Assembly (NCBI GenBank): GCA_022827885.1
Contig: JAJEIP010000096.1
Location: 1 to 62,648, forward strand
DNA from: Candidatus Poribacteria bacterium
GTDB lineage: Bacteria; Poribacteria; WGA-4E; WGA-3G
Length of the DNA stretch: 62,648 nt
Reading direction: 5' to 3'
Both the position numbers and the translations under genes were made by a program. Every line of letters begins with the position of its first letter. The first letter of the stretch is position 1. The notes under the pieces are model-generated. The model ran no database searches and was not told where the DNA came from. It saw nothing but the letters and a program-made list of their open reading frames with translations. Positions 8,385 through 60,750 of this stretch are shown piece after piece.

Positions 8385-8410
8385 CGGCACAACGGCGTGT
8401 GCCTACTACT
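8385..8410. repeat. Palindromic repeat family I, copy 1
   Basis: Core GGCACAACGGCGTGTGCC (8386-8403), an inverted repeat GGCACA/TGTGCC followed by TACTAC. It sits between the permease stop and the hisA start, just upstream of the hisA ribosome-binding site. Other copies are at 11735 and (two) at 13297-13360. Confidence 0.8.
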
Positions 8411-9308
8411 ATTCATCTCGGAAAATGCCGAGCAATTTCAATTGGACGATTGAGATAACCGCAATAATGAAAAATAGTACCCATCCGATCGTCGCCGCAT
8501 AGCCGAGACGCATGAACTGAAATCCATTTTTGTAGAGATACATGACGATCGTCGAGCCGGCATCCGCAGGTTCACCCCCGTTTGTCAAAATGAACGGAAG
8601 GTCGAAGAGTTGGAGCGAGCCTATCATCGAAACCACGAAAACGAAGGCTATCACGGGTCGTAAGGAGGGAAGCGTGACATGGATGAACGCCTGCCACCAG
8701 TTGGCACCATCAACGGCTGCCGCTTCATACAACTCCTGCCGAATCCCTTGTAATCCTGCTAAAAAATAGATCATATTGAATCCCGCCCACTGCCAAACGC
8801 CTGTCAGGATGACCGCTGGCATCACGTATTTCTCCTCGTTTAACCAACCGATCTCTTTGCCGAAGAGGACGAATTCCTGATTTACTAAACCCGCCCGTTG
8901 ATCGTAGACGAGGTTAAAGATAATCGCGACAAAAACGCCCGCAACAAGGACGGGTGCGAAAAAGGCGAGACGTAGGAAATTCTTGCCTTTGACGAATTTG
9001 GAGTTGAGTAGAATCGCTAACAGCAGCGCAATCGGTAGTTGGAGGGTAAGCGTGCCTGCTGCGAAATAGGCGGTGTTCCATAACGATTTCCAAAAGATTG
9101 GGTCGCGGAACAGGTCTGTGAAGTTACCGATGCCAACAAATATCCGACTTTGGAATCCACGCATTTCATAGAGGCTCATCACGAGCGACGAAATAAGCGG
9201 ATAGCCCATAAAAATGACGAAAAGCAGATAAAATGGAGCAATAAAAAGATAGGGAGCGATTTTCTGTTGTTGATTCCAAAAAACGTTCGTTGTGCGTTTC
9301 TGCTTCAT
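8409..9308 (-). CDS. ABC sugar transporter permease (MalF/UgpA type)
   Basis: 299-residue inner-membrane subunit of a carbohydrate ABC importer with six predicted membrane segments, the first at residues ~17-40. The EAA loop that docks on the ATPase is present as ELYEAAAVDGANWWQAFIHVTLPSL (~residues 195-219, EAA...G...P pattern). Start ATG 9308 follows AAGGA. It belongs with the solute-binding protein at 9791-11149, now separated by an inserted RNA-encoding element. The MalG-type partner and the ATPase are not in the window. Confidence 0.93.
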   Translation of the reverse strand: MKQKRTTNVFWNQQQKIAPYLFIAPFYLLFVIFMGYPLISSLVMSLYEMRGFQSRIFVGIGNFTDLFRDPIFWKSLWNTAYFAAGTLTLQLPIALLLAILLNSKFVKGKNFLRLAFFAPVLVAGVFVAIIFNLVYDQRAGLVNQEFVLFGKEIGWLNEEKYVMPAVILTGVWQWAGFNMIYFLAGLQGIRQELYEAAAVDGANWWQAFIHVTLPSLRPVIAFVFVVSMIGSLQLFDLPFILTNGGEPADAGSTIVMYLYKNGFQFMRLGYAATIGWVLFFIIAVISIVQLKLLGIFRDE

Positions 9309-9427
9309 ATTTTTTAATGATTCCTTCCACTGCGTTTCAGGCTACGTTCTAAATGTCTTTTGCGGAATTTACCAATTCCTTCGCGTGAAAGCCTCATCCT
9401 TTAGGGTGGGGATGAAACGCTTTTTTC

Positions 9428-9457
9428 TTGACTTTTTTCTCTAAAAAGTGGTATAAT
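9428..9457 (+). promoter_or_regulatory. Strong sigma70 promoter of the structured RNA
   Basis: TTGACT (9428-9433), 18 bases, perfect TATAAT (9452-9457). Predicted start near 9463-9465 coincides with the first base of the outer stem TAGCACT. No protein gene follows on this strand until 11360, so it appears to serve the RNA. Confidence 0.7.
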
Positions 9458-9462
9458 GCTAT

Positions 9463-9794
9463 TAGCACTTGGATAGGGATACCACCTCTCTCAATCTCTG
9501 AGAGAGTCCTATCCTCACCAGTGGTATGGTGTGTGAGTGCTAAGTGCGATACCACTCTAAACTAATCGGATAGCGTGCATATAAGCCGTATTGCGGATTT
9601 ATAACCCTCACGCCTTGTCTCGCTATCCATTTGTTCTTGCAGGCTGGGGTACCCTGGACTTAAACCAGATAAAACCGATCTGATTCGGAATAAGAGCCTG
9701 CGGGTGGAGCGACCCTAAGACGTTCAACCCTTTAGGGAAGAACGCAGTTGCTATGAAGCCGAAGCCCCACGCTTTAGCGTGTGGGTTGTATCAC
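9463..9794 (+). ncRNA. Large structured RNA, omega-RNA/HEARO-like
   Basis: About 330 nt with a chain of perfect stems. Domain 1: TAGCACT/AGTGCTA (9463-9469/9536-9542) encloses GGATAGGGA/TCCTATCC and CTCTCTCA/TGAGAGAG. TACCAC (9480-9485) can pair with GTGGTA (9521-9526) in the loop of a CACCA/TGGTG hairpin, a pseudoknot. Domain 2: GGATAGCG/CGCTATCC (9568-9575/9621-9628) over an inner hairpin with a CCG/CGG core. Domain 3: GCAGGCT/AGCCTGC (9639-9645/9695-9701) over two hairpins. Then GGGT/ACCC, GTTCAACCC/GGGAAGAAC (9722-9743) and the terminal right-end hairpin. In TnpB systems the guide lies 3' of such an end, in IscB (HEARO) systems 5'. Which applies here is unclear. No coding frame is visible. 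Confidence 0.7.
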
Positions 9795-11149
9795 AGGTCT
9801 CCCCATCTGCCTCTGTCCTTGGCAATCAGGGCTCGCACTTTTTCTGCCAAATCGGTTAACGCCTCTCTCGGGGTCTGTTTCTCGGTGACAGCGGCGAAAA
9901 TCGCATCGTTGAGGAGATCCGCCCCTTCCGACCAGTAGGGATTCTGATACCGCGCCGGCATATCGGGTGCCAATTTGATAAATAACTCTCCCAGCCGCTG
10001 TCCCCCCAAGTAAACATCAGGTTCCCTAAAGATGGGTGCGTCCCAGGCGGATTTGAGTGGCGGAATAATGCGTGTCGTCTCATAGCGATTGACGAGACCG
10101 GGTCTGTCAAAATAGGTAAACTTGAGCACTTCCCACGCCAGATCCGGATTTTCACACTGCTTCGTAATTCCGATCATGGTTCCCCCGCGCGTCGTGGTTC
10201 GCCGACCCCCGGGATGCCACGCAGGCATGCTGATCGCCTTCCATTTACCGGACATCTGCGGCACCTGACTCTTGAGAATGCCGACATACCAATCCGGTGC
10301 CAGGATAGAGAGAATCTTGCCATCCTGCATCGCTGCGAAATTACTCGGATCCCCGTGCCATGTACCGTATACGGGGGTCGCGATTTTATGTTCATTGAAC
10401 AACGCCGTGAAGAATTCCAGCGTCTCGATCGCGAGTTCACTGTCTATAATGACGTTGCCTGCTTCGTCGAAAAATCCGCCGCCCTGTTGGAGAAGTAGAC
10501 TGAAATAGTCGCTCTCCGTGCGTCGATCCAACACGATCGCGTATTGGTCAATCCTACCATCGCCATCAAGATCACGAGTCGCCTGCTTTCCAGCAGCGAT
10601 GAAGTCGTCCCATGTTTCAATTTCTGTCATCTCAACACCAGCGGCTTTAAAGAGGTCATCCCGGTAGAGCAGGATGACGGGATGTAAATCGTGCGGGATG
10701 CCGTAAATCCGACCGCGGTAGGACCAGGGGGTGAAGCGACTGACGACCAGTTTTTCCATCCATCCTTCGCTTTCTAAACGGGGACGGAGATCAACAAACC
10801 CGACCTCATCAATGGCGCCCTTAAGAAACCGACCGATGGAGGTGATCTCAACCTCAACGAGATCCGGGGCACCAAAGTTGGATAACATCGCAGCGAGGAG
10901 TTTATCGTGCATTGTGTTACCGAAATTGATGAGTTGGACGTTGACACCTGGATTCTGTGCCTCAAAGATGGGGACACGTGCTTGGTATTCTTCGTAGTGC
11001 GTGTTCGCGAAAATCCAGAATTCGAGATTCTCACCTTCCTCCTCCGTCCGTCCGAAGATGAAAAGTGTAGAAATCAGGAACAGCACCAGCATGACCATCG
11101 GTCCCTTGCCGAGCGGAAAACTTTCAGAATCAATAGGAAGGCGAAACAT
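9791..11149 (-). CDS. ABC sugar transporter substrate-binding protein, 3' end altered by insertion
   Basis: 452-residue family 1 extracellular solute-binding protein. An N-terminal hydrophobic segment (VMLVLFLISTLFIFG, residues ~19-33) is a signal/anchor. Family pattern follows: FEAQNPGVNVQLINFG, KLLAAMLSNFGAPDLVEVE, IPHDLHPVILLYRDDLFKAAG and a Ca-loop-like DLDGDGRIDQY. It feeds sugar or an oligosaccharide to the downstream permease. The stop codon lies inside the right end of the inserted RNA element. Removing the element keeps the frame open for 14-26 further codons on the far side (9309-9388), so the native C-terminus was probably longer. Confidence 0.92.
   Translation of the reverse strand: MFRLPIDSESFPLGKGPMVMLVLFLISTLFIFGRTEEEGENLEFWIFANTHYEEYQARVPIFEAQNPGVNVQLINFGNTMHDKLLAAMLSNFGAPDLVEVEITSIGRFLKGAIDEVGFVDLRPRLESEGWMEKLVVSRFTPWSYRGRIYGIPHDLHPVILLYRDDLFKAAGVEMTEIETWDDFIAAGKQATRDLDGDGRIDQYAIVLDRRTESDYFSLLLQQGGGFFDEAGNVIIDSELAIETLEFFTALFNEHKIATPVYGTWHGDPSNFAAMQDGKILSILAPDWYVGILKSQVPQMSGKWKAISMPAWHPGGRRTTTRGGTMIGITKQCENPDLAWEVLKFTYFDRPGLVNRYETTRIIPPLKSAWDAPIFREPDVYLGGQRLGELFIKLAPDMPARYQNPYWSEGADLLNDAIFAAVTEKQTPREALTDLAEKVRALIAKDRGRWGDL

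Positions 11150-60676: not shown

Positions 60677-60750
<74 letters not shown>

Follow-up and report, generated by a model that had tools for sequence, protein, structure and literature searches.

The window, the whole 62,648-nucleotide stretch of DNA analysed here, comes from a genome of 5.13 Mb in 148 contigs, of the same genus as the Poribacteria relatives used for comparison; we take the host bacterium to be one of the sponge-associated Poribacteria. An insertion of 422 bp (9373-9794, plus strand) lies between the minus-strand genes for an ABC permease (8409-9308) and a solute-binding protein (9791-11149). Its edges are defined by two relatives (loci L096 and L097) that hold a clean empty site, in which TTTAC is followed directly by AGGTCTCC; the uninterrupted sequence reads GGAATTTAC joined to AGGTCTCC or, in a longer form, GGAATTTAC joined to AGGTCTCCCC. 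The element therefore inserted 3' of TTTAC (9368-9372, plus strand), the predicted TAM, which is retained at the empty site, and the target was not duplicated, as is also the case for IS200/IS605 elements. The stop codon of the solute-binding protein gene is preserved, being TAA at the empty site and a TGA supplied by the right end of the element in the window. An earlier note on this DNA had the unit span 9389-9794 and insert after GTGA; the empty site corrects both points, and the GTGA (9385-9388) is internal to the element, adjoining a left-end subterminal hairpin (9392-9411, plus strand) that was found by folding and is like those upstream of resident tnpB genes.

The same note described an IS200/IS605-type hairpin at the right end, which we find at 9763-9787, and a non-coding RNA made almost wholly of perfect stems. 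The stems are indeed near-perfect, no ORF within the element reaches 80 aa, and 9389-9794 folds with -151.8 kcal/mol (z -6.2), none of 100 shuffles being equally stable; chance structure is rejected by these folding tests and by the covariation controls given below. We regard the element as mobile because of the empty sites and because near-identical copies occur at different sites. In another genome, two gene-less copies at separate sites (L214 and L231, the same places as L080 and L081) are likewise preceded by TTAC; from there on their left parts agree, but their flanks differ, as do a few bases close to the right end. L206 and L207 carry the same element body and part directly after it, at CATCAC. 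The only match in the window at the Rfam gathering level was a tRNA gene (60677-60750, minus strand).

The 3' part of the element (9637-9794, plus strand, 158 nt) is a TnpB omega-RNA scaffold with its right end, subterminal hairpin included, and its homology to the right ends of resident tnpB elements had been missed in the earlier reading. It is 85% identical to the DNA directly 3' of the TNB domain in tnpB loci C47, C29 and C141, and, at a contig end, C125 is 93% identical over 75 nt. An alignment of 20 tnpB omega-RNAs of the same type has 88 invariant columns, every one of them conserved in the window copy, whose overall identity to the nearest of these RNAs is 87%; the tnpB omega-RNA consensus structure has 39 pairs, 16 of which show changes on both sides. 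The scaffold of a TnpB system has its 3' boundary at the right end of the element, and the DNA flanking that end provides the guide (PMC10278001). The element shares its 3'-terminal scaffold, right-end hairpin and flanking guide with the TnpB omega-RNA (reRNA) loci of IS200/IS605 elements (PMC8612924, PMC10278001), as the TnpB-like 3'-guide layout suspected in the note would have it, but it lacks tnpB in cis and adds a promoter-proximal leader and a middle domain. The predicted guide segment (9795-9814, plus strand) is flanking DNA that matches the relatives' empty site next to TTTAC, and in an intact empty allele TTTAC and these 20 nt would stand side by side as TAM and target; the predicted empty-allele targets are TTTAC-AGGTCTCCCCATCTGC and TTTAC-AGGTCTCCCCATCTGCCTCT. 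For the commonest scaffold type of gene-less elements there was no near-identical tnpB cognate among the loci fetched, the best full-length match being about 75%.

The promoter TTGACT-18-TATAAT reported in the note (9428-9457, plus strand) holds up, with 11 of 12 consensus bases and a TG extension, and has equivalents upstream of tnpB genes. Between it and the position where tnpB would begin lies a pseudoknotted leader RNA of about 90 nt (9463-9549). On the plus strand it comprises P1, whose 5' strand (9463-9469) has tandem partners at 9536-9542 (P1') and 9543-9549 (P1''), P2 (9471-9477/9508-9514), the P3 hairpin (9486-9492/9500-9506), P4 (9516-9519/9528-9531) and a 7-bp pseudoknot (9479-9485/9521-9527). 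It is followed by TACCACTCTAA (9550-9560, plus strand), at the position equivalent to ATACCATGAAA of tnpB leaders and with the start codon absent. We recognised the leader because it precedes the resident tnpB genes: its 30 matches in the own genome cover 25 of the 26, the sole exception being an IS607-type locus (L037). That the promoter-proximal half is a leader common to almost all tnpB genes of the genome had escaped the earlier reading.

In an alignment of 25 tnpB leaders and two gene-less ones, 91% of cells pair and 25 of 34 pairs are changed on both sides; the covariation score is 0.476, against 0.174 in shuffled alignments (0 of 500 reaching it) and at most 0.094 in slid ones. The 23 gene-less leaders taken alone have both-side changes in 23 of 32 pairs, again with a covariation score that none of 500 shuffles matched, and in this alignment the pseudoknot is 95% and P4 98% paired. 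MAFFT misplaces P1 in part of it (60% paired), and P1 was checked on hand-delimited strands. Since 23 of 32 base pairs are compensatory in leaders that lack tnpB, these RNAs are selected without a protein: the leader structure is under selection in RNAs unable to encode TnpB, which is our main result. The covariation that the note had proposed as a check is thus present, homologous gene-less copies included. A sequence-specific DNA operator was also considered and rejected, as helix sequences vary between elements while the pairing persists. Neither the leader nor the middle domain matched any of 4227 Rfam families, and a hit of the element to an unrelated structured RNA class, which the note had contemplated, did not occur.

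The leader looks bistable: two tandem partners on the 3' side are equally good matches for its first strand. Across 59 tnpB leaders, the 5' strand of P1 forms a mean of 7.61 of 8 pairs with P1' and 7.58 of 8 with P1'', a second tandem copy lying 7 nt further on in nearly all of them, compared with at most 6.5 pairs when P1 strands were swapped between elements. Nearest-neighbour energies, computed with the pseudoknot left out, differ between the two pairings by 0.17 kcal/mol on average and by no more than 2 in 37 of the 59. P1'' ends about 4 nt upstream of the tnpB start codon (in L024 and L025 the second copy overlaps it), and both partners are retained in most gene-less copies. From these sequences we infer a bistable device with two competing P1 pairings, which would govern start-codon access in tnpB elements and folding or processing in gene-less ones; the leader may act on translation in the former and have another role in the latter. 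Its occurrence upstream of a few unrelated genes favours a role in expression control. Riboswitches and thermosensors are bistable 5'-UTR switches, and the tnpB copies of the leader resemble them in having mutually exclusive helices beside a start codon; unlike them, the leader has no Rfam match or known ligand and is retained in RNAs lacking a start codon.

The middle domain (9568-9628, plus strand) takes the place of tnpB, and among all loci fetched it is confined to gene-less elements. Its outer stem (9568-9575/9621-9628) covaries, with 24 double-change cells against 7.7 in shuffled alignments; RNAalifold gave little signal over the whole middle-domain alignment, and our claim is limited to this stem. 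An 80-nt query of the commonest middle-domain type had 46 matches, in 17 of the 38 genomes of the genus. Those inspected had a constant geometry of promoter, leader, CCACT replacing CCATG, middle domain, scaffold and right end.

Further gene-less copies, which the note had suggested looking for, do exist: the own genome has a second tnpB-less copy (L006, C34:4758-5155, minus strand), with an apparently duplicated middle region, and dozens with the same layout occur across the genus. Three near-complete genomes contain 148 leaders, at least 115 of which are followed by a TNB domain at a distance of 0.35-1.5 kb, mostly 0.94-1.25 kb; at most 33 of the 148 lack one, counted on the best 150 of 161 TNB matches. 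By reading, about 16 of these 33 are complete gene-less elements, and the remainder are truncated tnpB copies, tnpB copies missed among the matches listed, and leaders before other genes. Gene-less copies are more numerous than the leader model counts; searching by middle domain yielded additional ones. We also observed a second gene-less body type, in three copies (L206, L207 and L208, genome G018, including its 288-kb contig C2), whose scaffold had no match among the tnpB loci fetched.

The element is probably a protein-free, non-autonomous member of the IS200/IS605 type that provides the guide RNA itself but depends on TnpB in trans. Its boundaries and mobility, the origin of its 3' part, RNA-level selection where there is no ORF, and tnpB genes with matching scaffolds are all observed, and from here on we infer transcription, TnpB loading in trans and cleavage. 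Transcription from the element's own promoter would give an RNA of about 330 nt plus the downstream guide, ordered as 5' pseudoknotted leader, domain specific to gene-less elements, and intact TnpB omega-RNA scaffold running into the flanking guide. TnpB from resident elements with matching scaffolds (C47, C29, C141 and C125) would bind this scaffold, and, so loaded, could cut alleles that lack the element (TTTAC plus guide) and so help it to persist or spread. A Y1 TnpA would work in trans on the end hairpins. None of the four Y1 genes of the own genome has the element's end hairpins nearby; one of them looks IS200-type by eye. The independent guide-RNA transposon proposed in the earlier note, shorn of its HEARO/IscB assignment, would thus be the best-fitting reading of a protein-less mobile element.

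Protein-less IS605 derivatives are known as PATEs (PMC3119063, PMC7290912), and the element shares with them IS605-type ends with subterminal palindromes, the lack of a transposase and the lack of target duplication. It could thus be a tnpB element that passively lost its core, has no RNA function and is moved by TnpA through its remaining ends. PATEs of such origin have been described in Haloquadratum and Halanaerobium, including a 271-nt PATE-like element of Halanaerobium in which the final 58 nt of tnpB and the complete right end survive (PMC7290912), and the own genome has comparable derivatives: a short element reduced to its ends, with a hairpin on either side and no leader, a classical PATE/MITE (L007, C135:16614-16665), and a tnpB lacking its C-terminal part and fused to a right end (L008, C142:37287-37320). 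However, PATEs are described mainly as core deletions, whereas this element is more than the fused termini of a parent: it has a promoter, a leader and a domain specific to gene-less elements, under RNA-level selection. Passive decay is weakened by the covariation among gene-less copies alone, and it fits poorly with a body domain not seen in the tnpB elements fetched, a retained promoter, 88 of 88 intact invariant scaffold positions and a layout constant across the genus; we consider it unlikely.

The scaffold evidence that points to a guide would serve equally for a competitor or regulator, an RNA that occupies the TnpB of other elements and limits cutting rather than directing useful cuts. 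The 2 to about 11 gene-less copies per genome, beside 26-58 tnpB genes, are compatible with such a role, and for one orthologue there is a report that the tnpB mRNA inhibits cleavage by TnpB in vitro (PMC10278001). Yet the junction and right end are preserved and a normal guide follows the scaffold, making competition about as improbable as decay.

IS200/IS605 elements transpose as single strands and use hairpins, and the conserved stems might therefore act in single-stranded DNA during transposition rather than in RNA. This is very unlikely, as the leader starts where transcription is predicted to begin and abuts the start codons of tnpB elements, is missing from two tnpB elements (L171 and L172) that do have the left-end hairpin, and is also found upstream of unrelated genes.

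Stand-alone HEARO/IscB omega-RNA loci consist of a guide RNA without a nuclease gene in cis, a concept that the protein-free mobile RNA element described here shares with them. The HEARO/IscB identity given in the earlier note is nevertheless almost certainly wrong: HEARO (RF02033) had no match in the window at the gathering score, in 9300-9900 at E up to 10 or in seven gene-less or leader loci (one tnpB locus, L015, reached a weak 28 bits against a gathering score of 83), insertion is 3' of TTTAC rather than after ATGA/GTGA, and the homology of the 3' end is with the right ends of tnpB elements. HEARO RNA is the 5'-UTR guide of IscB (PMC9755519). Besides being unrelated in RNA, the two have their guides on opposite sides and differ in the nuclease family.

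Returning to a guide RNA for TnpB in trans, a further and more tentative possibility is an RNA-only transposon lineage, parasitic on the nucleases of others, with a three-domain RNA as its sole product: a new bistable pseudoknotted class that tnpB genes share as their leader, the gene-less domain and a TnpB scaffold, with leader and middle domain acting in the TnpB RNP or its regulation. To our knowledge, stand-alone guide RNAs are known for IscB. We found no tnpB-less family with its own leader and an extra RNA domain in the literature covered, which excluded most subscription journals and preprints. If our reading is true, transposons can lose all proteins and persist as a promoter and a guide RNA via TnpB in trans, and RNA-level selection for guide-RNA-only transposons is documented genus-wide. 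The leader is an RNA structure absent from Rfam that stands before most IS605-type tnpB genes here, which opens the regulation of TnpB expression to direct test, and compact natural guide RNAs with extra domains could be of use in TnpB tool design.

The leader model was positive in 55 of 85 genomes from the phylum. These belong to two families within a single order and comprise all 38 of the genus, some others of the family and four of another family. Exact-pattern searches of viral contigs gave no leader match, phage and plasmid records held no DNA similar to it, and members of the same TnpB subfamily from Anaerotruncus, Pseudomonadota, Bacillota and Chloroflexi did not carry it. When the search was widened to 387 genomes, a single further one proved leader-positive; it comes from another phylum and has five leaders, which are best read as horizontal transfer or as a binning error or MAG contamination; the three that we read are each followed by tnpB-type DNA (L244 and L245 among the loci of this 1.7-Mb genome, G154).

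Other loci deserve mention. L038 (C133:6623-6665) has a similar TTGACT/TATAAT-type promoter, followed by no obvious gene but by another strong RNA hairpin, rich in GC, which the leader model did not pick up. At L190 and L135 (own genome, C73:330 and C34:74239) and L143 (G005:C1:3817257) the leader precedes a small non-tnpB ORF (KRENQQILLKDNRES...), and a GTG lies close to the second copy of P1. Finally, leader-like structures stand before apparent host genes with signal-peptide-like starts at L203 (G018:C1:1733836) and L202 (G010:C1:1375436), where the leader was possibly exapted as a 5' UTR.
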